From assembly GCF_007830055.1 (NCBI RefSeq), contig NZ_VLLE01000003.1, positions 1,054,001 through 1,118,000 on the forward strand: 64,000 nucleotides of DNA, written 5' to 3'. The translations under genes and the position numbers were made by a program. The notes below the pieces were generated by a model. The model searched no databases. It was not told the DNA's origin and worked only from the letters and a program-made list of their open reading frames with translations. The DNA is from Lacibacter cauensis (GTDB lineage Bacteria > Bacteroidota > Bacteroidia > Chitinophagales > Chitinophagaceae). Positions 8,225 through 21,528 of this stretch are shown here, piece after piece; the stretch's first letter is position 1; each line of letters opens with the position of its first letter.

Positions 8225-8256
8225 TTGTCCGTTGTCTGTCGTCTGTACTATCTTTG
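8225..8256 (+). promoter_or_regulatory. Promoter of tgt
   Basis: TTG at 8225-8227 and a perfect -7 box TATCTTTG at 8249-8256, 21 bases apart. The -33 part lies in the CTGTTGTCC-type intergenic repeat. The box ends 7 bases before the ATG at 8264, which predicts a leaderless or nearly leaderless mRNA. Confidence 0.6.
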
Positions 8257-8263
8257 CGCTCTT

Positions 8264-9403
8264 ATGGCCGCATTACAGTTTCAGTTACAACATACCGATC
8301 CGCAATCGAAAGCAAGAGCAGGAGAGATTACTACTGATCACGGAACAATTCAAACACCCATTTTTATGCCGGTGGGTACAGTGGGCAGTGTAAAATCGCT
8401 TACGGTTGAGCAGTTGAAGAGCGAAGTAAAAGCAGAGATTATTTTAGGTAATACGTATCATCTGTATTTACGTCCGGGTACAGAAGTACTGGAAGCAGCA
8501 GGCGGTTTGCATAAATTCAACGGATGGGATCGCCCTATTTTAACAGACAGCGGCGGCTACCAGGTTTTCTCATTAGCCGGTAATCGAAAAATCAAGGAAG
8601 AAGGTGTAGTGTTTCAAAGCCATATTGATGGCAGCAAGCATTTGTTTACACCCGAAAGCGTAATGGATATTCAGCGTAGCATTGGAGCAGATATTGTGAT
8701 GGCCTTTGATGAATGTCCGCCTTACCCGAGCGATTATACCTATGCCAAAAAATCGATGGAGTTAACACACCGCTGGCTTGAGCGTTGCATCAAGCATTTT
8801 CATAACACTCCCGATAAGTACGGCTATACACAAAACCTGTTTCCGATTGTGCAGGGTAGTACGTATAAAGATCTGCGTACAGCATCTTCGCAATTTGTTG
8901 CCAATACTAATTTAACCGGTTGTGCCATTGGTGGTTTAAGTGTTGGCGAGCCCGAAGAAATGATGTACGAGTTTACCGAGTTATGTTGTGATGAATTGCC
9001 AATCCAAAAACCACGTTACCTCATGGGCGTTGGTACACCGTGGAATATTTTAGAGTGTATTGCATTGGGTGTAGATATGTTCGATTGTGTAATGCCAACA
9101 CGCAACGGACGTAATGCCATGTTATTTACAAGCAAAGGTGTTATCAATATCGATAATAAAAAATGGGAGAAAGATTTTTCTCCATTGGATGATGGTATCG
9201 ATTGTCATATCAGCAACTACTACAGTAAAGCATATCTGCGACACCTCATCAAAGCAAAAGAAATTACCGGGCTTACATTAGCAAGTGTGCACAACCTCGC
9301 ATTTTATTTATGGTTGGTAAAAGAAGCACGTAAGCATGTTCTCGCAGGCGACTTTGTAAGCTGGAAGAATGAATTGGTGCCTGTGTTGAAAACAAGGTTG
9401 TAA
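8264..9403 (+). CDS. tgt: tRNA-guanine transglycosylase (queuine tRNA-ribosyltransferase)
   Basis: Exchanges G34 for preQ1 in tRNAs with GUN anticodons, the queuosine pathway. The core motifs are clear: P-I-F-M-P-V-G-T-V-G-S-V-K near the N-terminus, L-T-D-S-G-G-Y-Q-V-F-S-L with the catalytic-pocket Asp, and D-C-V-M-P-T-R-N-G-R-N. The C-terminal zinc site is degraded: the usual C-x-C-x2-C reads I-D-C-H-I-S, so only one of three Cys remains, although the His in S-V-H-N-L is kept. I chose the ATG at 8264 because the promoter overlaps the longer frame. The protein has 379 aa. Confidence 0.93.
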   Translation: MAALQFQLQHTDPQSKARAGEITTDHGTIQTPIFMPVGTVGSVKSLTVEQLKSEVKAEIILGNTYHLYLRPGTEVLEAAGGLHKFNGWDRPILTDSGGYQVFSLAGNRKIKEEGVVFQSHIDGSKHLFTPESVMDIQRSIGADIVMAFDECPPYPSDYTYAKKSMELTHRWLERCIKHFHNTPDKYGYTQNLFPIVQGSTYKDLRTASSQFVANTNLTGCAIGGLSVGEPEEMMYEFTELCCDELPIQKPRYLMGVGTPWNILECIALGVDMFDCVMPTRNGRNAMLFTSKGVINIDNKKWEKDFSPLDDGIDCHISNYYSKAYLRHLIKAKEITGLTLASVHNLAFYLWLVKEARKHVLAGDFVSWKNELVPVLKTRL

Positions 9404-9506: not shown

Positions 9507-10094
9507 ATGACGGAAACCGAACAAATACAAGAACTGTTTAGTGAAATTGCATTGCAGAACAGCCAGCAGGCTTACCGCAGGTTGTTTATCCGTTTACACA
9601 AACCTTTACTTCGTTTTGCCTACGGCATTTTAAAATCGAACGATGATGCAGAGGAAGTCGTATCGGATGTATTTATCAATCTCTGGCAAAAAAGGCAGGA
9701 GTTAACTGCCATCGAATCGCCTTTGTTATACATCTATACAGCAGTAAAAAACAGGGCATTGAATGTACTGGCCAAACAAAAACGGCAGGAAGCCGCCGAT
9801 GCAAGCCAATGGCTGGTACCGCTGAACAGTGTATCGTTTAATCCTGAGCAATTAATGATTTCGCAGGAAACGATCTTACGCATTCGCAAAGCTGTCGATG
9901 AACTGCCTGCCCGTTGCCGGCTTATTTTCCTGTTAATTAAAGAAGACGGTTTGCGGTACCGGGAAGTTGCTGAGCTACTCAACATTTCTGTAAAAACAGT
10001 AGAAGCGCAAATGGCCATTGCCATGCGACGTATGGCCCAATGCATGCACCTGCAGCTGCCTGTAAAAGAAAGCGCAAATTTTTTTAAAAAATAA
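9507..10094 (+). CDS. ECF RNA polymerase sigma factor (FecI-like)
   Basis: A 195-residue extracytoplasmic-function sigma factor. Region 2 spans about residues 22-95 with N-D-D-A-E-E-V-V-S-D-V-F-I-N-L-W, and region 4 spans about 125-180 with L-P-x-R-C-R-L-I-F-L-L and the HTH Y-R-E-V-A-E-L-L-N-I-S-V-K-T-V-E. It heads the locus with a FecR anti-sigma gene 68 bases downstream and a SusC that carries an N-terminal STN domain. By the Fec-type model, substrate at the outer membrane signals through FecR to release this sigma, which then transcribes the uptake genes. Confidence 0.93.
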   Translation: MTETEQIQELFSEIALQNSQQAYRRLFIRLHKPLLRFAYGILKSNDDAEEVVSDVFINLWQKRQELTAIESPLLYIYTAVKNRALNVLAKQKRQEAADASQWLVPLNSVSFNPEQLMISQETILRIRKAVDELPARCRLIFLLIKEDGLRYREVAELLNISVKTVEAQMAIAMRRMAQCMHLQLPVKESANFFKK

Positions 10095-10162
10095 TTTCAC
10101 CGACTTTAGGGGTAAACGAATAGTTGTGTTGTCTTACTTAGTAAGAAACGACATCTATTTTC

Positions 10163-11260
10163 ATGAGCCAGGAACAGTATTGGATTTTACTTTCAAAAAA
10201 GATTGCAGGCGAAGCCAGCCCGGAAGAGCTGACGGAGCTGGAGCAGTTAATGCAACAACACCCCGAATGGCAGTATGCTGCACAAAATCTTGCTGATATC
10301 TGGGCATCGGAAAAAGATACAAACACAGCTGACGAGGAAGACGCTTATCTCCTGCATGTACAACGCATGAAGGAGCAGGGAGTAGGTTTTGAGGATAATG
10401 TGCTTTACGCTTACCCGCAAGCAGAGCAACCCCGAACTTCTCATTTTGCGGCCTATCGAAAAATTTACATCAGCATAGCCGTTGCTGCCTCTATTTTAAC
10501 TGCTGTGTTTGTATTTTCTTCTCAACTGAAATCCGGCAGTAAAGTCGTTGCCGTTAAAGAACCCAACGAAATAACAACCAACAACGGGTCCCGCACCAAA
10601 GTGCAATTGCCCGACGGTTCTGTGGTATGGTTAAATGCAGGCAGTAAAATTAAATACGATGAAAACTTTGGTACCCAAACCCGTGATGTGATATTGAGTG
10701 GCGAAGCTTTTTTTGATGTGGTGAAGAACAAAGAAAAGCCTTTTGTTATTCACACGCCCACGATTGATATTAAGGTAGTAGGTACTGCCTTTAATGTAAA
10801 AGCCTATCCCAAAGATCCCACTACAGAAACAAGTTTAATTCGTGGGTTGATTGAAGTAACGATCAAGAACCGATCGAACGACAAGATTATTCTTACACCC
10901 AACGAAAAACTGATTGTTGAAAATAATCCTGCCGGTAACAGGGAAAATGCATCAACCGGAAAACCCGAACCGGTAATTTCTATCAACCCCATTAAACCTA
11001 ACCGTAACGACAGTACTATTAACGAAATACAGTGGGTACAAAACAGGTTGGTGTTTGATGATGAACCGTTACAGGAAATTGCACGGAAGATGGAACGTTG
11101 GTACAATGTAACAATCAACATTCAAACAGAAGAGCTGCTGGATAAACGTATTTCGGGCTCGTTCGTAAACGAAAATATCGACCAGGCACTGGAAGCCCTG
11201 AGTATAACGGGGCGTTTCCGGTATAAACGCACTAACAACACGATTACCATAAACCCATAA
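10163..11260 (+). CDS. FecR-family anti-sigma factor
   Basis: A 365-residue inner-membrane anti-sigma protein. An N-terminal cytoplasmic part (about 1-95) binds sigma, a single membrane helix covers roughly residues 95-112 (Y-I-S-I-A-V-A-A-S-I-L), and the periplasmic FecR domain has the classic N-N-G-S-R-T-K-V-Q-L-P-D-G-S-V-V-W-L-N and G-E-A-F-F-D-V motifs. A C-terminal DUF4974 segment (L-V-F-D-D-E-P-L-Q-E-I-A-R-K-M) faces the STN domain of SusC. It lies between the sigma factor and susC, the standard order. Confidence 0.93.
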   Translation: MSQEQYWILLSKKIAGEASPEELTELEQLMQQHPEWQYAAQNLADIWASEKDTNTADEEDAYLLHVQRMKEQGVGFEDNVLYAYPQAEQPRTSHFAAYRKIYISIAVAASILTAVFVFSSQLKSGSKVVAVKEPNEITTNNGSRTKVQLPDGSVVWLNAGSKIKYDENFGTQTRDVILSGEAFFDVVKNKEKPFVIHTPTIDIKVVGTAFNVKAYPKDPTTETSLIRGLIEVTIKNRSNDKIILTPNEKLIVENNPAGNRENASTGKPEPVISINPIKPNRNDSTINEIQWVQNRLVFDDEPLQEIARKMERWYNVTINIQTEELLDKRISGSFVNENIDQALEALSITGRFRYKRTNNTITINP

Positions 11261-11406
11261 CGATTACTGCACAATGCTTTGCCACAACACATCCTGATAA
11301 CAATTAAAAAAGCGGAGCTCTGCTGCAACAGAACCCCGCCGGTAGTAAAAGATTGAAACTGTCTCCCGGGCGGAAGACATCGTTATTCACCTTTCAAATG
11401 GAAATT

Positions 11407-14400
11407 ATGAAAAAAAAAGGAGCAGGGTCTGTTTTTAAAACAGATCAGCTATCAAAAAAGCTGTTATTGATTATGAAACTAACGACACTATTGTTAACGG
11501 TTTTTTGTCTGCATGTATCGGCTCATACGTATTCGCAGGAAAAAATAAGCCTGAAAATGAAAACGGTTGAGTTGAAAAAAGTACTGCAGGCAATTGAAAA
11601 GTCAAGCGATTACCGGTTCCTGTTTGATGAAGTATTGGTAAAAGGAAAACCGAAAGTATCGGTGGAAGTTGAGAATGCCGATATTAACCAGGTGTTATCA
11701 TTGGTACTCAGCAATACCGGTTTAGGTTACCAGATACTTAATACAAATCTTGTAGTGTTAAAAGAAACAGGTTCGCAACAGGAACTGAAAGAAGTAACGG
11801 TATCAGGTAAAGTTACGGCTTCAACAGGCGAACCGCTGGCAGGGGTATCGGTCACATTAAACAACAGTACAATTGGTACTACCACCAATGCCGATGGTAC
11901 TTACAGTTTAACAGTACCCGATGATGCTGTACTTATATTTTCTTCGGTAGGTTATACAACTACAGAAGAAAAAGTGAGTGGCCGTCCGGTTATTAATATT
12001 GTTTTACAGCCTGCCACACAAACCATGAACGAAGTAGTGGTGGTGGGTTATGGTACACAACGCAAGCGTGATTTAACCGGATCGGTTTCTTCTATTAAAG
12101 GCGATGAAGTTTCCAAAATGCCTGCAACCAATCCTATTGCTTCCTTACAGGGAAAAGTGCCCGGTTTAACTATCTCGAACACAGGTAGAGCTGGTGCTGC
12201 ACCGGTGGTACGTATTCGTGGTATCAACAGTACCAACAGTGCAAGTCCGGTATATGTGGTAGATGGTATTTTACACGATAACATCGATTTTCTCAATCCA
12301 GCTGATATTGAAACAATCGACATCCTGCGTGATCCATCGTCTATTGCAATTTATGGTTTGCGTGGTGCTAATGGTGTAATTGCTATTACATCGAAAAAAG
12401 CAGCACGTGGACAAACACGCATCAACCTGCAAAGCTCGGTAGGTATACAAACGGTACAACATAAAATTGCCTTAACCGATGCAGCAGGGTTTAGAAAATT
12501 ATATACTGCACAACTGGCGAATCTTAATGCAGCTCCATTCGATTATACCAACTATACTGCTAATACCAATTGGCAGGACCTGGTGTTACAGGATGCTGTT
12601 ATTACAACACATAACCTCAGCGTATCAAACAACTCAGAAAAAACAACCACTTACCTCAACATTGGTTATACCAACCAGGAAGGTGTGTTAAAGTACGATC
12701 AGTTTGAGCGGTATCTTGTTCGTTTAAATGAAGAGATCCGCATTTCAAAGAATATTAAAGTAGGTGGCGATATCAGCGGTTATCATTACAAAAACAATCC
12801 GCCGGCTGCATCCATTACCAATGCCTTGTGGGCTGCGCCAATTGTACCTGTACAGGCAGATGCCAATACATATTACAGTATGCCATCGTTCCAGCGTGCG
12901 CAGGTTGGTAACCCCATTGCTGCACTTAACAGGAATAACCGCAGTTCTATTGAAAATGGATTTCGTGTAATTGGTAGTTTGTTTGCCGAAGTAAAGTTTT
13001 TGAAAAGCTTTACCTGGAAGTCAGTTGTGTACACCGATCTGAGTTTCTTTACAGGGCGCAGCTTTAACCGCTTGCCTTATCGTTTTATAAATCTTGGAGA
13101 AGGTACAGCGGCAACTACAACTACGGTTGATAACTCCATCCGTACATCGGTATCGCAAGAGCAAAGCGAATCACGCCGTTACCAGCAGGATCATACATTG
13201 AGCTACGATAAGCGTATCGGCAACGGGCATACGATTAATGCAGTAGCTGGTGTAACGACCATCTATAACCGCAGTTCATTTGTAAATGGTTTCCGCAGAG
13301 ATACATCGGTTAACGTTCCTGATAATCCTGATTTCTGGTACCTCGGTGTTATTAATGTAAACAACCCCATTTCCAATGGTGGTGGCGGCGGCGAAAGTGC
13401 AATTGCCGGTGGTTTTGCAAGAGTAAGTTATACGTACAAAGGCAAGTACCTGTTAAATGCAACCATCCGTAGAGATGGCAGCTCGAAGTTTGCTCCTGAA
13501 AACCGTTGGGGTACGTTTGGTAGTGTAGGTGCCGGTTGGGTTGTAAGTGATGAAGACTTTTTCAAAAATGTAAAAGGAATCGACTTTTTGAAAATACGTG
13601 GTGCCTGGGGTTTAACCGGTAATGCCAATGGCTTTGCTGATGATTTGTGGCGCCCCGGTATTCAAAATGCATCTACTGCAATTTTTGGCGATAATATTTA
13701 CACGTCTATCCAGGCAGCTTACATTCCCGATCCGAAACTGCGTTGGGAAACGGTACGTGGTTTAGATGTAGGGTTTGATATACGTGCATTGGATAACAGG
13801 CTCAATACAGAGTTTACATTCTACGATCGTACAACAACAGATATTCTTACCGGTGTAACGTTACCAAACGAAACACGCAGCTACTTCACCAATCTTGGTA
13901 AGATCACCAACAGGGGTGTTGAATTAACTGCAGGATGGAACGATCGTATTGGTAAGGATCTTACTTACGGCGTATCGGCCAACGTCAGTTACAATATGAA
14001 CGTGGTTAACTCTATCGGTAATAATTTCAACTTTACGATTACCGGTAATGGTGGTGTAAACCGCACCAACACGGGTCAGTCGATTGGTTATTTCTATGGT
14101 TATACACAAACAGGTATTTATCAATCAACAGCCGATCTGGCAAAGCAACCTGCTTTTGTAACATCATTACCCGGCGATATTGCTTATCTCGATCGCAATG
14201 GTGATGGGGTATTGAATGATAATGATCGTGGATATATCGGAACTCCATTTCCTCCATACAGCTATGGTGGTTCATTAAGTCTTGGTTACAAAGGCCTCGA
14301 TTTTCAAATAGAAATGCAGGGTGCAGCAGGGCATAGCATTTACACCCAACGCCGCACTTCTACGTTTGCTACATTGAATTTTGAAGCCAACCGTTTAAAT

Positions 14401-14733
14401 GCATGGACAGCTCCGGGCACATCGAACATTGAACCGATTATGGATAACACAAGAGGCAACAACTTCCTCATGAGCACGTATTACCTTGAACCAGGCGATT
14501 ATCTCCGTATCCGTTTGTTACAGATCGGGTACACATTTAATGAATCTGCATTAAGCAAGGTTGGTATTAAAAAAGCGAGAGTATTCCTGAGTGGTCAAAA
14601 CGTTGCTACATGGAGCCGTGTTACAGGTTACTCACCTGAACCATTGATCGGAAGTATTCTTGGCGGCGGTGCCGATAACGGTGCATATCCTGTACCATCC
14701 GTTTATTCACTCGGCATTAATGTAACTTTTTAA
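11407..14733 (+). CDS. SusC/RagA-type TonB-dependent outer-membrane transporter with STN domain
   Basis: An outer-membrane glycan importer of 1,108 aa. After an atypically long N-terminus and signal peptide (ending V-S-A-H-T-Y-S-Q) come a signalling STN domain (about 45-120) and a carboxypeptidase-regulatory-like domain (V-S-G-K-V-T-A-S-T-G-E-P-L-A-G). A TonB box-like M-N-E-V-V-V-V-G-Y-G-T-Q, a plug (R-I-R-G-I-N-S) and the barrel follow. The STN domain is what allows control by the FecR/sigma pair upstream. I use the ATG at 11407; an in-frame start at 11353 adds residues that do not look like a leader peptide. SusD starts 22 bases after the stop. Confidence 0.93.
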   Translation: MKKKGAGSVFKTDQLSKKLLLIMKLTTLLLTVFCLHVSAHTYSQEKISLKMKTVELKKVLQAIEKSSDYRFLFDEVLVKGKPKVSVEVENADINQVLSLVLSNTGLGYQILNTNLVVLKETGSQQELKEVTVSGKVTASTGEPLAGVSVTLNNSTIGTTTNADGTYSLTVPDDAVLIFSSVGYTTTEEKVSGRPVINIVLQPATQTMNEVVVVGYGTQRKRDLTGSVSSIKGDEVSKMPATNPIASLQGKVPGLTISNTGRAGAAPVVRIRGINSTNSASPVYVVDGILHDNIDFLNPADIETIDILRDPSSIAIYGLRGANGVIAITSKKAARGQTRINLQSSVGIQTVQHKIALTDAAGFRKLYTAQLANLNAAPFDYTNYTANTNWQDLVLQDAVITTHNLSVSNNSEKTTTYLNIGYTNQEGVLKYDQFERYLVRLNEEIRISKNIKVGGDISGYHYKNNPPAASITNALWAAPIVPVQADANTYYSMPSFQRAQVGNPIAALNRNNRSSIENGFRVIGSLFAEVKFLKSFTWKSVVYTDLSFFTGRSFNRLPYRFINLGEGTAATTTTVDNSIRTSVSQEQSESRRYQQDHTLSYDKRIGNGHTINAVAGVTTIYNRSSFVNGFRRDTSVNVPDNPDFWYLGVINVNNPISNGGGGGESAIAGGFARVSYTYKGKYLLNATIRRDGSSKFAPENRWGTFGSVGAGWVVSDEDFFKNVKGIDFLKIRGAWGLTGNANGFADDLWRPGIQNASTAIFGDNIYTSIQAAYIPDPKLRWETVRGLDVGFDIRALDNRLNTEFTFYDRTTTDILTGVTLPNETRSYFTNLGKITNRGVELTAGWNDRIGKDLTYGVSANVSYNMNVVNSIGNNFNFTITGNGGVNRTNTGQSIGYFYGYTQTGIYQSTADLAKQPAFVTSLPGDIAYLDRNGDGVLNDNDRGYIGTPFPPYSYGGSLSLGYKGLDFQIEMQGAAGHSIYTQRRTSTFATLNFEANRLNAWTAPGTSNIEPIMDNTRGNNFLMSTYYLEPGDYLRIRLLQIGYTFNESALSKVGIKKARVFLSGQNVATWSRVTGYSPEPLIGSILGGGADNGAYPVPSVYSLGINVTF

Positions 14734-14755
14734 ACGACTTTAAAACATTCGAAAT

Positions 14756-16306
14756 ATGAAATCATTCATGCCTTTAACAAGAAAAATACAGGTAGCTCTG
14801 TTTGCTGCAGTTGTTGTACTTGCAGCAACCGGTTGTAAAGGATTTCTCGATACAAACCGGCAGGGAGCTTATACCGAAGATAATTATCCTTATCCCGGAG
14901 GTTCCGGTCCATACGATCAGTTTATTTTTGGTGCATATAACGAGCTGCGTAGTTTTAACCTGCACAGCCAATCGTTCATAACTGCTACCAGCATCCGCAG
15001 TGATGATGCCGATAAAGGAAGTACACCAACTGATGGTGGTACCAATGCCATTACCATGGATAATTTTCCGGTAGCAGCAAGCAATGGTTTTTGTAATACA
15101 CTCTGGTTGGGTAATTACACACTCATTACACGTTGCAACAGTACCATTAAAGAAATCAATACCAATACAAGCATTATTGCAAGCAACGAAGTAAAACAGC
15201 AAACACTTGGTGAAGCCCGTTTCCTTCGTGCTTATGCGTATTTTAATCTTGTACGTTTCTTTGGTCGTGTGCCATTGATTGATACATTGTTCAGCGATCC
15301 TGCTGCACAAAATAACGTGGCACAAAGTACAGCAGCGCAGATCTATGCGTTTATTGAAAACGATCTCACATTCGCAGCATCGGTATTGCCACTCAGCTGG
15401 GACAGTCGCTTTGTAGGCCGTGCCACCAAAGGAGCAGCAAATGGTTTACTGGCGAAAGTATATCTCACCCAACAGAAATGGGCTTCTGCAATGGCTGCAG
15501 CCAACAGTGTTATGATATCGGGTCAGTACGATCTCTCAACGCCGTATGATCGCATTTTTAGAGAAGAAGGAGAGAACAGCAAAGAATCGGTATTTGAAGT
15601 ACAGGCAACAGCAACTGCTGCCATTCCTTCTAATAACGGTGTACAATATGCGCAGATACAGGGTATACGTGGAGCAGGCATCTGGGATCTTGGCTGGGGC
15701 TGGAACACACCAAGCGATCAGCTGGTAGCGGCATACGAGCCCAACGATCCACGTAAGGCAAGAACGATTTTGTTTACAAGCACATCTACCACGCCGGGCT
15801 TAACTATCTATGGTGAAACAACACCTGTTGGTTTACCTAATCCCCGCTACAACAATAAAGTGTACAGCAATCCATCGTTACGTACATCTATCGGTAACCG
15901 TTTCGGTTACTGGATGAACGTTCGGTTGTTGCGTTATGCCGATGTTGTATTGATGTATGCAGAAGCAGCAAATGAAGTGGGCGGTGCTGCTAATACCACT
16001 GCTGCATTGGCAGCATTAAATTCTGTAAGGGCAAGAGCAAGACAAGGTGCTCCTGCAGGTACATTGCCCGATGTAACAACAACCGATCAGGCATTGTTGC
16101 GTGAAGCTATCCGTAAAGAACGCCGTGTTGAACTGGCAATGGAGCACGATCGTTTCTTTGATCTTGTACGTTGGGGTATTGCGCAAGATGTGTTGCAGGC
16201 TGCAGGTAAAACCAATTTCAGTAACAGTCGTGATGTATTGTTGCCAATTCCGCAAACACAAATCGATTTAAGTGCGGGTAAGCTTACACAGAATCCCGGT
16301 TATTAA
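14756..16306 (+). CDS. SusD/RagB-type surface glycan-binding lipoprotein
   Basis: The lid partner of SusC, 516 aa, held on the outer-membrane surface by a lipid anchor. The signal peptide ends in the lipobox L-A-A-T-G-C, followed by the usual SusD start K-G-F-L-D-T-N. Typical features are the A-R-F-L-R-A-Y-A-Y-F-N-L-V-R-F-F-G helix, the L-M-Y-A-E-A-A-N-E repeat helix, and the C-terminal R-K-E-R-R-V-E-L-A-M-E-H-D-R-F-F-D-L-V-R-W. It is directly downstream of and probably co-transcribed with susC. Ligand specificity cannot be read from the sequence. Confidence 0.93.
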   Translation: MKSFMPLTRKIQVALFAAVVVLAATGCKGFLDTNRQGAYTEDNYPYPGGSGPYDQFIFGAYNELRSFNLHSQSFITATSIRSDDADKGSTPTDGGTNAITMDNFPVAASNGFCNTLWLGNYTLITRCNSTIKEINTNTSIIASNEVKQQTLGEARFLRAYAYFNLVRFFGRVPLIDTLFSDPAAQNNVAQSTAAQIYAFIENDLTFAASVLPLSWDSRFVGRATKGAANGLLAKVYLTQQKWASAMAAANSVMISGQYDLSTPYDRIFREEGENSKESVFEVQATATAAIPSNNGVQYAQIQGIRGAGIWDLGWGWNTPSDQLVAAYEPNDPRKARTILFTSTSTTPGLTIYGETTPVGLPNPRYNNKVYSNPSLRTSIGNRFGYWMNVRLLRYADVVLMYAEAANEVGGAANTTAALAALNSVRARARQGAPAGTLPDVTTTDQALLREAIRKERRVELAMEHDRFFDLVRWGIAQDVLQAAGKTNFSNSRDVLLPIPQTQIDLSAGKLTQNPGY

Positions 16307-16333
16307 TTTGATTGATTCTTAAAAACTGAAACA

Positions 16334-17221
16334 ATGAAACTATTTCAAATAAAACAAACAGTTGCAGGCGCATTGCTACTAACGGTAACAGCATTGTCGT
16401 GCAAACCCGATGGTAATCCGAATAATCTGCCATCGGTAAACCCGGCCGATTATGCCGGTAAGATCGATGGCTTCAACAGTTCGGATGAAATTTTTCCCGA
16501 TAACTTGATTGCATACTGGAGCTTTGATGATACGAAAAATGAATTGAAAAGCGGTACCGCCCCTGGTTCTTCTGCAGGCGACAGTTATGTAACCGATGCT
16601 GTGCGTGGTAAATCGCTAAGTCTTACTGCAGGATATTTATATTTCCCTACGCAGTTCCAGAAATTTAAAACAGATACAATTAAAAGCTGGAGTATCAGTA
16701 CCTGGATCAAGATCCGTAATAACGGAAGCAAACGTACCATGCTGTTTCAGCTGGCACGTCCGGGAGTTTTCACCGGTAACATCAACTTTGCATTAAACAC
16801 GCAAAGCTATAATGCAGCAAACGATTCTGTTCTGCGTATTCAACCCACATTTGCAACCGTAAGTGGCGGTACGCAGGATAACGTCAACAGTGGTGCGGGA
16901 CAGGATAAAGTAAGCCTCAACAGCTGGGTACACGTCATTCTTACATACGAATACACAACAGGTGTATTCAATATCTGGATGAATGGTGTAAAAGTGGGCA
17001 ACTTTCCCAATCGTGGTACAGGTAATAACTCATTTAAATCGTATGAGCCAAGTGAAGTCATTATTGGTTCAAACTACAATGGTATTCCCGGTAAATCGGT
17101 TAGCAGCGATGTTACATTTGCACCAATGACAGGGCAAGTGGATGAGTTGCGAATCTTCAACCGTACTTTACCCGATGCATTTATTAAGGCATTGTATAAT
17201 TTAGGTAAAGCCAATAAGTAA
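16334..17221 (+). CDS. LamG/concanavalin-like surface lipoprotein (SusE/F position)
   Basis: A 295-residue lipoprotein (lipobox T-A-L-S-C near residue 23). After a short linker it shows a LamG-type jelly-roll domain: L-I-A-Y-W-S-F-D-D, then S-W-S-I-S-T-W-I-K, then W-V-H-V-I-L-T-Y-E, then W-M-N-G-V-K-V-G, then Q-V-D-E-L-R-I-F-N-R. In the position after SusD such proteins act as extra surface glycan-binding proteins. No catalytic residues are evident. A strong terminator follows at 17234, so the binding genes may be made in larger amounts than the enzymes downstream. Confidence 0.85.
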   Translation: MKLFQIKQTVAGALLLTVTALSCKPDGNPNNLPSVNPADYAGKIDGFNSSDEIFPDNLIAYWSFDDTKNELKSGTAPGSSAGDSYVTDAVRGKSLSLTAGYLYFPTQFQKFKTDTIKSWSISTWIKIRNNGSKRTMLFQLARPGVFTGNINFALNTQSYNAANDSVLRIQPTFATVSGGTQDNVNSGAGQDKVSLNSWVHVILTYEYTTGVFNIWMNGVKVGNFPNRGTGNNSFKSYEPSEVIIGSNYNGIPGKSVSSDVTFAPMTGQVDELRIFNRTLPDAFIKALYNLGKANK

Positions 17222-17233
17222 TTTATTTCTTAG

Positions 17234-17271
17234 GCGTACACAGTTGCATGCGTTGCTGTGTACGCTTTTTT
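17234..17271 (+). terminator. Intrinsic terminator inside the glycan locus
   Basis: A perfect 10-bp stem GCGTACACAG (17234-17243) / CTGTGTACGC (17256-17265) followed by six T. It separates the SusC/SusD/LamG genes from the glucanase gene and overlaps the longest open frame of the latter, which supports the downstream start at 17299. Confidence 0.85.
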
Positions 17272-17298
17272 ATTTCTGTACGTTCAATAATTTTTCTT

Positions 17299-18654
17299 AT
17301 GCGGTTTTTTTCAGCGGTTATTCTTGTCAGTTTCTTGCTTGCGTGTTCCAATGCAAAAAAAGTTCCTGCAACGCAGACTGTATTTGCATCAAAAGAAGAC
17401 GAAGCCATTTTTACCGACGTGCAGCGTGCAACCTTTCAATACTTCTGGGATGGTGCAGAACCAACCAGCGGTTTGGCCCGTGAACGTTTTCATGTTGATA
17501 ATATCTATCCGCAAAACGATAAAAACGTTGTTACCAGCGGCGGCGGCGGTTTTGGTGTAATGGCTATCCTTGTTGGTATTGAACGTGGATTTATCAGCAG
17601 AGATGAAGGAAGGCAACGACTGGAAAAGATCGTACAGTTTTTAGAAACAGCCGATCGCTTCCATGGTGCATGGCCGCATTGGTGGAATGGCGAAACAGGA
17701 AAAGTTAAACCGTTCAGCCGTTACGATGATGGAGGTGATTTGGTTGAAACATCGTTTATGATCCAGGGCTTGCTTTGTGTGCGGCAGTATTTTCAAAACG
17801 GTTCTGCAACAGAAAAAACATTGGCCACACGTATTGATAAACTCTGGAAAGAAGTAGAGTTTGATTGGTACCGCAATGGAAAAAATGCATTGTACTGGCA
17901 TTGGAGTCCCAACCATGCGTGGCGGATGAATTTTGCAGTGGATGGTTATAATGAATGTTTGATCATGTATGTACTTGCAGCAGCATCGCCCACACATGCT
18001 GTGCCTGCAGAAGTGTATCATGAAGGATGGGCAAAGAACGGTAAGATCAATGAACTGCCTGCGGGTTTTGAGGATATTAAGTTGTCGATGAATCATCATA
18101 ACAAAGAAGGAGCAGCAGGTCCGTTGTTCTGGGCGCATTATTCATATCTCGGTCTTGATCCACGTGGATTGAAAGACAAGTATGCCGATTACTGGAAACA
18201 CAATACCGGTCATACGTTGATTCATTATCGTTGGTGTGTTAACAACCTGAACGGATACAAAGGTTATGGCCCAGACAGTTGGGGTTTAACCTCAAGCTAT
18301 TCGATGAAAGGCTATGCAGGGCATGCACCAACCAAAGACAGAGATCTCGGTGTTATTTCGCCAACAGCAGCTTTATCATCTTTTCCTTACACACCTAAGG
18401 AGTCAATGGCGGCGATGAAAAACTGGTACACAAACAAAAAAGACAAACTGTTTGGCGTGTATGGTTTTTATGATGCTTTCAGTGAAACGGAAAATTGGTA
18501 TCTGCCACGTTACCTTGCAATAGATCAGGGACCAGCAGTAGTAATGATGGAAAATTACAGAAGTGGTTTACTCTGGAATTTATTTATGAGTTGCCCCGAA
18601 ATAAAAGATGGGTTGAAGAAACTTGGATTTGAAAGTCCGCATTTAGCAAAGTAA
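17299..18654 (+). CDS. GH144-like (glucoamylase-family) beta-glucanase, lipoprotein
   Basis: A 451-residue exported hydrolase with lipobox V-S-F-L-L-A-C. The mature part matches the Pfam glycoamylase domain: F-Q-Y-F-W-D-G-A-E-P-T-S-G-L-A-R-E-R near the start, T-S-G-G-G-G-F-G, W-P-H-W-W-N-G, R-Y-D-D-G-G-D-L-V-E-T-S-F, D-G-Y-N-E-C-L-I, W-G-L-T-S-S-Y and Q-G-P-x-V-V-M-M-E-N-Y-R. Characterised members from Chitinophaga and Parabacteroides are GH144 endo-beta-1,2-glucanases. The acidic residues in DDGGD and the Glu in YNE are candidate catalytic residues by analogy. Assignment to GH144 is by resemblance; a related glucoamylase-like activity is possible. Start 17299 follows the terminator. Confidence 0.8.
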   Translation: MRFFSAVILVSFLLACSNAKKVPATQTVFASKEDEAIFTDVQRATFQYFWDGAEPTSGLARERFHVDNIYPQNDKNVVTSGGGGFGVMAILVGIERGFISRDEGRQRLEKIVQFLETADRFHGAWPHWWNGETGKVKPFSRYDDGGDLVETSFMIQGLLCVRQYFQNGSATEKTLATRIDKLWKEVEFDWYRNGKNALYWHWSPNHAWRMNFAVDGYNECLIMYVLAAASPTHAVPAEVYHEGWAKNGKINELPAGFEDIKLSMNHHNKEGAAGPLFWAHYSYLGLDPRGLKDKYADYWKHNTGHTLIHYRWCVNNLNGYKGYGPDSWGLTSSYSMKGYAGHAPTKDRDLGVISPTAALSSFPYTPKESMAAMKNWYTNKKDKLFGVYGFYDAFSETENWYLPRYLAIDQGPAVVMMENYRSGLLWNLFMSCPEIKDGLKKLGFESPHLAK

Positions 18655-18706
18655 AAAAGTGTACAGGCTTCATCATTTGTTAATGATAAAGCTAAACTTC
18701 ACCACA

Positions 18707-18714
18707 TAATTTTG
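18707..18714 (+). promoter_or_regulatory. Candidate -7 box upstream of the secreted esterase
   Basis: TAATTTTG matches TAnnTTTG and ends 4 bases before the ATG at 18719. No TTG lies at the expected upstream spacing, so it may be weak or need an activator. Confidence 0.4.
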
Positions 18715-18718
18715 AAAC

Positions 18719-19510
18719 ATGAAATACAGAAGTATACTTGCTTTTTTATTCGTACTCTTATTTGTTGATGTACAGGCGCAGGATATGAGCCTCTACGAAA
18801 AGCAATGGTTTATTCAATACGGCGATATATTGCCTTACCGTATACTGTTGCCGGAGAATTATGATGCTGCAAAAACCTATCCGCTGATTGTGTTTTTGCA
18901 TGGAAGAGGAGAGAGCGGTAACGATAATGAAAAACAATTAACACACGGTGCCAAACTCTTTTTGCAGGACAGCATCCGTAAAAAATACCCGGCCATTGTT
19001 GTGTTTCCGCAATGTTCGGCAACCAATTACTGGAGCAATGTGCAGGCTGTAACAAGCGGTACAAAAAACGGCAAACGCAGTTTTTATTTTGTAGCCGATG
19101 GTGAACCAACATCGCCATTACGTTTGCTGATGAGTTTGGTTGGTAACCTGCAGGTGCGTTATAGGATTCAGCAAAAGCAGATGTATGTAATGGGTTTATC
19201 CATGGGTGGTATGGGTACATTTGAATTGGTACGACGCATGCCCAATACCTTTGCTGCAGCAGTTCCTATTTGCGGTGGTGCGCATCCGGCAACAGCCACG
19301 CAATTGGTTAAAACAAAATGGTGGGTGTTTCATGGAGGAAAAGATGATGTAGTGCTGCCGGAGTTTTCGCAAAAGATGGTAACCGCATTAAAGCAGCAGA
19401 AAGCTTCGGTGAAGTTTACGCTTTATCCCGATGCCAATCATAACAGCTGGGATGCTGCCTTTGCAGAACCACAATTGTTGCAGTGGTTATTTCAGCAGCG
19501 CAAACAATAA
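18719..19510 (+). CDS. Secreted alpha/beta-hydrolase (carboxylesterase/phospholipase-like)
   Basis: A 263-residue exported serine hydrolase. The signal peptide MKYRSILAFLFVLLFVDVQA is followed by the fold's oxyanion motif L-H-G-R-G-E-S-G, the nucleophile elbow G-L-S-M-G-G-M-G, a candidate Asp in G-G-K-D-D-V-V and the His in D-A-N-H-N-S-W. It resembles the Bacteroidota prolyl-oligopeptidase/esterase-type hydrolases of glycan loci, which remove acyl groups. Its place between a GH144-like enzyme and a glycerophosphodiesterase suggests removal of an ester substituent, for example succinyl, from the glycan; that is inference. Confidence 0.8.
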   Translation: MKYRSILAFLFVLLFVDVQAQDMSLYEKQWFIQYGDILPYRILLPENYDAAKTYPLIVFLHGRGESGNDNEKQLTHGAKLFLQDSIRKKYPAIVVFPQCSATNYWSNVQAVTSGTKNGKRSFYFVADGEPTSPLRLLMSLVGNLQVRYRIQQKQMYVMGLSMGGMGTFELVRRMPNTFAAAVPICGGAHPATATQLVKTKWWVFHGGKDDVVLPEFSQKMVTALKQQKASVKFTLYPDANHNSWDAAFAEPQLLQWLFQQRKQ

Positions 19511-19532
19511 TAGTACAATTAAAAGTAAACAC

Positions 19533-20324
19533 GTGAAACGCTTCAGCTATAGTCTTTGTTTGTTGTTCTGTTTATCCTGTACAGCAACAAAGCAGTCAAC
19601 ACAAAACATAAAATTTGCGGCCAACCCTGTGGTGGCACATCGTGGTGCCTTTAAGCTGAATAAGCTGCCTGAAAATTCGATTGCAGCATTAAAGGAAGCG
19701 ATTCGTTTAAAATGTACAGGATCGGAATTTGATATACGTATGACGGCCGATGATTCACTTGTGATCAACCACGATCCGCATTTCAATAAACTGGAAATTG
19801 AAAAAGTAACATATGCAGAGTTGATGCAGTTTCGTTTGTCCAACAACGAGCCATTACCCACACTCCAGCAATACCTTGAAGCAGGATTAGCCAACAATAC
19901 CTCTACACGTTTAATTCTGGAAATAAAACCTTCAGGCATCAGTAAAGAAAGAGGTAAACGCATTGCTGAAAAAGTAGTACAGCTGGTAAAACGTTTACAT
20001 GCCGAACCGATGGCTGTGTACATCAGCTTTGATTATGATATTCTGCTGAAGATCCGTGAGCTGGATGCAACTGCTGTGCTGCAATATCTCGAAGGCAACA
20101 AATCGCCTGCACAGGTAAAGGCCGATAAGATTAACGGCGTCGATTATCATTACTCTTTCTTTCAAAAAAATCCGCAATGGATTACGGAAGCGAAACAAAA
20201 CGGTATTGCCTTGAATTCATGGACGGTAAACGATAGTACAACCATGAGCTGGTTATTAAAAGAAGGCTTCGATTATATTACTACCAATGAGCCGGAGTTG
20301 TTGTTTCGGCTGCTGAAGAAATAA
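19533..20324 (+). CDS. Glycerophosphodiester phosphodiesterase, lipoprotein
   Basis: Hydrolyses glycerophosphodiesters to glycerol 3-phosphate and an alcohol. The GDPD motifs are complete: V-A-H-R-G-A, L-P-E-N-S-I-A-A, G-S-E-F-D-I-R-M-T-A-D, and I-N-H-D-P. E-I-K-P and the C-terminal N-S-W-T-V-N-D follow. The start is a GTG at 19533, giving a lipoprotein signal (C-L-L-F-C-L-S-C); upstream ATGs in frame lie inside the esterase gene. It begins 22 bases after the esterase stop, so the two are an operon, and a strong terminator follows. A lipid-anchored exported GDPD in a glycan locus is unusual. Confidence 0.85.
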   Translation: MKRFSYSLCLLFCLSCTATKQSTQNIKFAANPVVAHRGAFKLNKLPENSIAALKEAIRLKCTGSEFDIRMTADDSLVINHDPHFNKLEIEKVTYAELMQFRLSNNEPLPTLQQYLEAGLANNTSTRLILEIKPSGISKERGKRIAEKVVQLVKRLHAEPMAVYISFDYDILLKIRELDATAVLQYLEGNKSPAQVKADKINGVDYHYSFFQKNPQWITEAKQNGIALNSWTVNDSTTMSWLLKEGFDYITTNEPELLFRLLKK

Positions 20325-20356
20325 AAGCCAGCTAATCCCAAGGTCGGGGAGTATTA

Positions 20357-20388
20357 CCGGCCGTTTTTCCAGAAAACGGCCGGTTTTT
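20357..20388 (+). terminator. Intrinsic terminator ending the glycan locus
   Basis: CCGGCCGTTTT (20357-20367) pairs perfectly with AAAACGGCCGG (20373-20383), followed by TTTTT. Confidence 0.9.
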
Positions 20389-20436
20389 ATTTCTAACACT
20401 TCTTTTCCAAAATCTGCCCTTACTTTGCAGGCATTC

Positions 20437-21528
20437 ATGAAAATCCTCGATTGGTACATATTAAAGTCGTTTTTGAAGACTTTCTTTTTCCTGCTCCTCA
20501 TCTTTTCGATGATTACATTGGCTATTGATGCCAGTGAAAAAAGCGAAGATTTTGTGCGCAGCGGGCTAACCTTCAACGAAATTGTTACCAAGTATTACTA
20601 TGGGTTTCTGCCACATATCATAGCATTGTTGTTCCCGGTGTTTGTATTGATTGCGGTGGTGTTCTTTACATCCAAACTTGCACTCCGCAGCGAAATTGTA
20701 GCCATGCTGAGTGTGGGCATGAGCCTCAACCGCATTCTTCGTCCGTATTGGGTAGGGGGGATCTTTCTGGCGTTGATGCTTGGACTGGCCAATCACTTTT
20801 TGATTCCGGTTGCTAACATCATCCGCACCAATTTCGAGAACAAGTATGTAGATATGGGCAATATTGCCAAGCAGCAACGCCAGTATCTCAACAATATTCA
20901 TTTCAGGGTTGATACGTACACCTATGCCGGTATGCGTAACTACGATACGACTACCAAAATCGGCAATGGCTTTTTTCTGGAAAAGGTTAAGAATAACCAG
21001 GTGTATTACAACCTGCGTTCCGAATCGATTTTGTGGGATACGGCCAAAAAACAATGGAAGCTGGAAAATGCAGTTGAGCGCAAAATCAACGGGCTTGATG
21101 AGGAAGTAAAAACCTTATCGAACTACTATTTAAAAATGGGATACCTGCCCAGCGATATTTCGGAAGATGACTTTAAAAAAGATAAACTGAAAACACCAGC
21201 GCTCAACCGTTTTATTAAGCAGGAGCAGATCCGTGGATCGGAAGGGGTGAATGCCATTAAGTTTGAACGCTACCGGCGTGATGCCAGTGCTATTTCAGTA
21301 ATTGTAATGACGATGATCGCTGCTATTCTTGCCTGCAGGAAAATAAGAGGGGGCAGTGGCTTTCACCTGGCCCTGGCGTTTATTATTGGCGTAACCTTTA
21401 TTGTGGTTGATAAATTCTCCATGGTGTTTTCTACAAAAGGCAATCTTCCGCCTATTATTGCGGCATGGATACCCAATGTAATTTTCGCTTTCATTGCCTA
21501 CCGGTTGTATAAACGTGCACCTAAATAG
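20437..21528 (+). CDS. LptF/LptG-family permease (lipopolysaccharide export)
   Basis: A YjgP/YjgQ-type inner-membrane subunit of the LPS transport ABC system, 363 aa. The start M-K-I-L-D-W-Y-I-L-K-S-F is the family hallmark; three N-terminal helices follow, then a periplasmic beta-jellyroll region (about 120-260) and three C-terminal helices. A TTACTTTG box at 20420-20427 overlaps the longer frame (TTG at 20425), so the ATG at 20437 is preferred. Whether it is LptF or LptG cannot be settled from this gene alone. Confidence 0.88.
   Translation: MKILDWYILKSFLKTFFFLLLIFSMITLAIDASEKSEDFVRSGLTFNEIVTKYYYGFLPHIIALLFPVFVLIAVVFFTSKLALRSEIVAMLSVGMSLNRILRPYWVGGIFLALMLGLANHFLIPVANIIRTNFENKYVDMGNIAKQQRQYLNNIHFRVDTYTYAGMRNYDTTTKIGNGFFLEKVKNNQVYYNLRSESILWDTAKKQWKLENAVERKINGLDEEVKTLSNYYLKMGYLPSDISEDDFKKDKLKTPALNRFIKQEQIRGSEGVNAIKFERYRRDASAISVIVMTMIAAILACRKIRGGSGFHLALAFIIGVTFIVVDKFSMVFSTKGNLPPIIAAWIPNVIFAFIAYRLYKRAPK

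Follow-up and report, generated by a model that had tools for sequence, protein, structure and literature searches.

Which glucan would call for a GH144-type glucanase, a secreted esterase, and a GDPD phosphodiesterase in a single gene run? The question is raised by a locus in a 64,000-nucleotide stretch of Lacibacter cauensis DNA (the window), which lies on contig C2 of a genome of 4.95 Mb. At positions 9507-20324, eight plus-strand genes form one run with a terminator at its end, and SusC and SusD stand adjacent in one unit with glycan-degrading enzymes, as in a Sus-type system. We consider this to be probably a compact Sus-type locus for substituted beta-1,2-glucans, among which the osmoregulated periplasmic glucans (OPG) of Proteobacteria are the likeliest target. 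The features of the unit are as follows.

9507..10094, + strand: ECF sigma factor, Bacteroidetes type (sigma-70 regions 2 and 4 by Pfam; TIGR02985)
10163..11260, + strand: FecR-type anti-sigma factor (Pfam FecR and FecR_C)
11398..14733, + strand: SusC/RagA TonB-dependent transporter with STN domain (STN, CarboxypepD_reg, and plug; TIGR04056)
14756..16306, + strand: SusD-type protein (Pfam SusD_RagB and SusD-like_3)
16334..17221, + strand: LamG lipoprotein, presumed surface glycan-binding protein (Pfam Laminin_G_3)
17248..18654, likely start 17299, + strand: predicted GH144-type endo-beta-1,2-glucanase with lipoprotein-like signal (PF10091; 5gzk/5gzh match)
18719..19510, + strand: secreted alpha/beta-hydrolase esterase, presumed acyl-removing (Pfam alpha/beta-hydrolase)
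19533..20324 (GTG start), + strand: GDPD phosphodiesterase with lipoprotein-like signal, presumed phosphoglycerol-removing (Pfam GDPD, PF03009)
20356..20384, + strand: intrinsic terminator closing the unit (13-pair stem with 7 GC pairs, then a T run)

The first-pass annotation had listed the eight genes as one run with a terminator at the end, and all were confirmed at this place, on one strand, with Pfam and TIGR models and a stem search. The SusC reading frame is open from 11353 and scored 794 bits against TIGR04056. The unit is flanked by tgt (8225-9403; named from sequence) and by lptF/G (20425-21528), which the terminator directly precedes. Since the order from sigma factor to GH144 recurs in other genera, the eight-gene run is beyond chance. 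A Bacteroidetes promoter motif splitting the unit was considered and rejected, as the pattern TTTG-N17-23-TAnnTTTG gave 4 matches in the window against 5.1 expected and was not in excess. No exo-enzyme was present among the eight genes.

The GH144-type hydrolase

The assignment of the hydrolase to GH144 in the first-pass annotation was borne out by a PF10091 match of 263.6 bits (cut-off, 27) and by a 723-bit match over residues 37-466 (about 430 residues) to its best solved relatives, 5gzk (1.3e-216) and 5gzh ("Endo-beta-1,2-glucanase"; 1.7e-216). We take these two structures to be the Chitinophaga pinensis endo-beta-1,2-glucanase, the founder of GH144. BDI_3064 (5z06) ranked further down, with 415 bits. 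The acidic residues E211 and D400, presumably the catalytic residues of the GH144 reference enzyme (the numbering being likewise assumed), were aligned and kept in the window hydrolase. The protein is thus of GH144 type and is predicted to be an endo-beta-1,2-glucanase. Whereas 5gzh/5gzk is a single enzyme, the window hydrolase sits in an eight-gene Sus locus.

Membership in GH144 does not by itself prove a glucan substrate, because a GH144 locus of Bacteroides xylanisolvens contains a beta-1,2-galactosidase, according to the available text of PMC11739564. The target may instead be a phosphodiester-bearing polymer other than OPG, such as an exopolysaccharide or capsule containing a run of beta-1,2 linkages, and the galactosidase is consistent with this, as are the GH97, GH43, Melibiase_2, GMC, GDSL, and PhoD-like genes found near the GDPD in some larger relatives. 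Two genomes (G021 and G023; loci L086 and L093) also speak for it, carrying SusC-SusD-LamG-GDPD with the GDPD directly after LamG and no GH144 in the stretch examined. However, a characterized beta-1,2-glucanase is a very close relative of the window hydrolase, and OPGs are themselves beta-1,2-glucans with phosphoglycerol and succinyl groups (available text of PMC10514313 and PMC11842490); we regard a polymer of this other kind as improbable.

The GDPD, esterase, and LamG proteins

The open reading frame of the GDPD starts at 19431 and overlaps the esterase; the likely start was corrected to a GTG at 19533, 22 bases past the esterase stop, which gives the protein a lipoprotein-like signal (LSC/T). 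The Pfam GDPD match scored 102.8 bits (cut-off, 23.6), and HRG, PENS, E65, D67, H80, E130, and K132 were invariant in 9/9 GDPDs. Family membership is indicated by PF03009 together with the conserved H-R, E-x-D, H, and E-x-K residues, which we take to have known roles in the family. The closest solved relative was 7ww4/7wwc (residues 5-237, 255 bits), a "beta-1,3(4)-glucanase" whose 480-residue chain has a further half, whereas the window GDPD stands alone beside GH144. For the LamG protein, whose lipobox cysteine was invariant in 10/10 aligned LamG proteins, no solved relative was found by sequence up to an E value of 0.01, and the AlphaFold model had a mean pLDDT of 52.9.

Gene order at the same site in relatives

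In Lacibacter luteus (G213, L148), the stretch from tgt to lptF/G contains GH144, the esterase, and the GDPD only, and the LamG core was absent from this genome at an E value of 1e-30. The order GH144-esterase-GDPD-lptF/G was also observed in G395 (L169), up to the contig end. In G369, of the same genus as the window, FecR-SusC-SusD-LamG-GH144 adjoins lptF/G without esterase and GDPD, the stretch examined ending within FecR. The L. luteus and G369 arrangements therefore indicate that the triad can occur where the Sus half is missing, and the Sus half where the esterase and GDPD are missing. Neither esterase nor GDPD was found beside lptF/G in G083, G160, and G292, and the GDPD as a fixed neighbor of lptF/G was rejected on these three genomes and G369.

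Across the family Chitinophagaceae, the LamG core was found in 36/394 genomes, and 34 loci, the window included, were compared. GH144 was present in 28 of the 34 and the GDPD in 8, which belonged to six genera: g1, g22, g24, g67, g87, and g91 (three species). In G146 the GDPD lay five genes past the first GH144. The esterase was matched strongly in 7/34 loci, one more match of 24 bits being left uncounted. Other GDPDs were located in larger clusters for beta-1,2-glucan that also hold GH3 and, in part, GH43, GDSL, PhoD-like, and GH97 genes. The synteny of GDPD and GH144, proposed as a check at first pass, holds for a number of Chitinophagaceae genera and for Flavobacterium as well, though for a minority of the loci examined only (8/34 LamG-core loci; 4/39 strong GDPD rows of the family sample with a listed GH144 no more than 15 kb away). 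A gene with an FGE-sulfatase domain (formylglycine-generating-like) also recurs in LamG-core loci (L034:14589-15719, L125, L126, L127, L130, and L137).

GDPD neighborhoods in named genomes

From 415 confirmed GDPD loci the best 80 were taken as a named set; the alignment used to find them consisted largely of locus-type GDPDs. Among these 80, 47 had GH144, GH3b, or a LamG core no more than 8 kb away (the beta-1,2 class), 18 were GH16 fusions, and 15 were other. The esterase type was near the GDPD in 33/47 of the beta-1,2 class, 4/18 of the fusions, and 0/15 of the others. Rows titled Flavobacterium fell into the beta-1,2 class in 23 of 24 cases; GH144 was near in 23 of the 24, GH3b in 23, and the esterase type in 21, and the usual order was SusC-SusD-GH144-esterase-GH3b-GDPD-GH43. 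The one Flavobacterium esterase aligned was distant from the window esterase (33% identity). GH97 genes near GDPD and GH3 were noted in 6/47 named loci (including L084:2628-3788 and L187); one guess is that GH97 opens the alpha-1,6 link of cyclized OPG.

All 18 GDPD fusions matched the GH16 query at >60 bits, and Pfam confirmed GDPD plus GH16 in the three fusion proteins scanned. A GH30 match was present in 6/80 named loci, five of the six being GH16 fusions. Fusions of about 510 residues were observed at L091:7995-9524, L108:7257-8816, and L153:7998-9536. In four Niabella loci (L191, L194, L195, and L198) a relative of the window esterase comes after the fusion, and GH30 genes lie near other fusions (L203, L206, L210, L221, L225, L091, L108, and L113).

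Strength of the association

Genomes for a family sample and a phylum sample were picked regardless of gene context. In the family sample, GH144 was present in 40 of the 45 genomes with a strong GDPD and in 85 of 150 others (Fisher P = 4e-5, kinship ignored). In the phylum sample of 395 genomes, 38 had both genes, 5 the GDPD alone, 82 GH144 alone, and 270 neither, so that GH144 occurred in 38/43 genomes with the GDPD versus 82/352 without it (P = 5e-17, kinship ignored). The two genes were within 5 kb of each other in 11 of the 43 among the matches listed, 9 of these being in one genus; the chance figure for this sample assumes 1.5 clusters per 4.5 Mb. Weaker GDPD relatives in family genomes served as a control: 0/84 had a listed GH144 within 15 kb, versus 4/39 for this clade, and chance adjacency of GDPD and GH144 was rejected on this basis. 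The beta-1,2 label, mapped onto a tree of 118 GDPD domains, requires 10 changes, of which no fewer than 7 are forced by well-supported branches; each may represent a gain or a loss. In relatives, the GDPD thus shows genetic linkage to beta-1,2-glucan genes. The link of the GDPD and the esterase type with such genes recurs, and the clade is not exclusive to them.

Several observations weigh against a dedicated role for the two genes. The GDPD clade is not found mainly with beta-1,2-glucan genes in the family sample, where the 42 loci examined from the 45 strong-GDPD genomes comprised 8 beta-1,2 loci, 5 fusions, and 29 others away from the beta-glucan genes tested (compared with 47/80 beta-1,2 loci in the named set). 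The esterase and the GDPD occur together in a single one of the 34 LamG-core loci, that of the window, and in 1/9 LamG-core rows of the named set (L189). Both genes are missing beside lptF/G in G369, and G083, also of the same genus, carries this GDPD at another place. Genome size and lineage may, moreover, govern the presence of GDPD as well as that of GH144.

Alternatively, this may be an ordinary Sus locus for beta-1,2-glucan in which the GDPD is a general-purpose glycerophosphodiesterase and the esterase a generic one, both present by happenstance and without any part in glucan breakdown. Such a locus would account for the 29/42 relatives found elsewhere, for the single locus with both genes among the 34, and for G369. 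It fits less well with the recurrence of the pairing in varied gene orders and in Flavobacterium or with the forced label changes on the tree. The triad without a Sus half in L. luteus, the lack of adjacency among the weaker GDPD relatives, and the fusion of the same GDPD to GH16 likewise argue against it. We judge happenstance to be an unlikely explanation, if one that deserves serious consideration, and prefer a locus for substituted glucans.

A second GH144 locus on contig C4

The genome of the window (G000) has a second, larger locus predicted for beta-1,2-glucan, as follows.

Contig C4, L260:11100-16601, L069:1-19909, and L259:1-2656: second, larger beta-1,2-glucan locus

It comprises sigma factor, FecR, SusC, SusD, LamG, an FG-GAP/ASPIC-UnbV protein, two GH30, and two GH144 genes, and it also holds GFO/IDH/MocA, DoxX, GMC oxidoreductase, GH43, GDSL, PhoD-like, and GH3 genes. 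By gene size, two of the genes had been taken for a second SusC/SusD pair; this was rejected, since Pfam identified the FG-GAP/ASPIC-UnbV protein and two GH30 proteins. The FG-GAP/ASPIC-UnbV protein (1103 residues; L069:3325-6636) recurs in 14/40 GH144 loci (L034-L073), and a GH30 match was present in 14 of the same 40. A relative of the C4 GH3 (L084) was closest to the solved structures 3u48, 5tf0, 9urf, and 5xxl, the last of which we take to be an enzyme acting on beta-1,2-gluco-oligosaccharides. The nearest match of the first GH30 was 5ngk (263 bits), the endo-beta-1,6-glucanase BT3312 (available text of PMC5481569). Because of this kinship, the C4 GH30 genes fit OPGs with beta-1,6 branches. 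The PhoD-like gene of C4 may be another phosphodiester remover.

Proposed function

OPGs are produced by many Gram-negative bacteria, and those of Escherichia coli carry phosphoglycerol, succinate, and phosphoethanolamine, while cyclic OPGs bear succinyl or acetyl groups (available text of PMC10514313 and PMC11842490). We infer that the GDPD and the esterase strip off phosphoglycerol and acyl groups, respectively. SusD and the LamG protein would bind the glucan at the cell surface and SusC would import it, the signal being relayed via STN, FecR, and the ECF sigma factor. The GDPD would hydrolyze phosphodiester-linked glycerol on the glucan and the esterase would take off succinyl or acetyl groups, and this uncapping would let GH144 cut the backbone. 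The C4 locus would finish the breakdown, with GH30 enzymes perhaps removing beta-1,6 branches, and the window locus would act as its companion, dealing with phosphodiester and acyl groups alongside C4's own PhoD-like and GDSL genes. Two points of chemistry are less favorable. E. coli OPG bears sn-1-phosphoglycerol and GlpQ favors sn-3 diesters, and the second C4 GH30 is closest to 2wnw and glucosylceramidases rather than to 5ngk.

The backbone of group 1 OPG is beta-1,2-linked and carries beta-1,6 branches (available text of PMC10514313), and group 4 OPG is a cyclic beta-1,3-beta-1,6-glucan (available text of PMC10514313 and PMC11842490). GH144 with GH30 would fit the former and the GDPD-GH16 fusions beside GH30 the latter; the fusions may act on beta-1,3/1,6-type OPG. 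A wider proposal, which we put forward tentatively and at less than even confidence, is that throughout Bacteroidota this GDPD, often with the esterase, uncaps substituted glucans, namely, beta-1,2 OPGs where it accompanies GH144 and GH3 (and GH30) and cyclic beta-1,3/beta-1,6 OPGs where it is fused to GH16, in part with GH30 nearby.

Relation to known systems and significance

The first-pass statement that a dedicated Sus-type system for decorated OPG was not known to be described was too wide. In the available text of PMC6499787, GH144 Sus loci are abundant in Bacteroidetes, and marine GH144 Sus loci with a sulfatase have been interpreted as acting on a decorated polymer (also PMC8072126). 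Like those polysaccharide utilization loci, the window locus combines SusC/SusD with a GH144 enzyme; it differs in having a GDPD and an alpha/beta-hydrolase esterase with no exo-enzyme, whereas the marine loci in the available text of PMC6499787 have a sulfatase. In the open-licence literature, which leaves most subscription journals outside and is therefore weak evidence, no paper was found on a GDPD linked with GH144, on a GDPD with a GH16 laminarinase, on PDB 7ww4, or on an enzyme removing OPG substituents during scavenging. The locus is therefore of a known kind, in a GDPD-bearing variant for which no description was found; genomic support for the link is good, and the chemistry is that predicted from sequence.

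The locus points to two candidate enzymes for the removal of OPG substituents, the GDPD and the esterase. If the proposed function is true, they would provide tools for editing these substituents, and the locus would point to Proteobacteria as a source of nutrients for Bacteroidota. If uncapping by this GDPD is true of Bacteroidota as a whole, the phylum would possess a dedicated route, assembled several times, for feeding on the periplasmic glucans of Proteobacteria.

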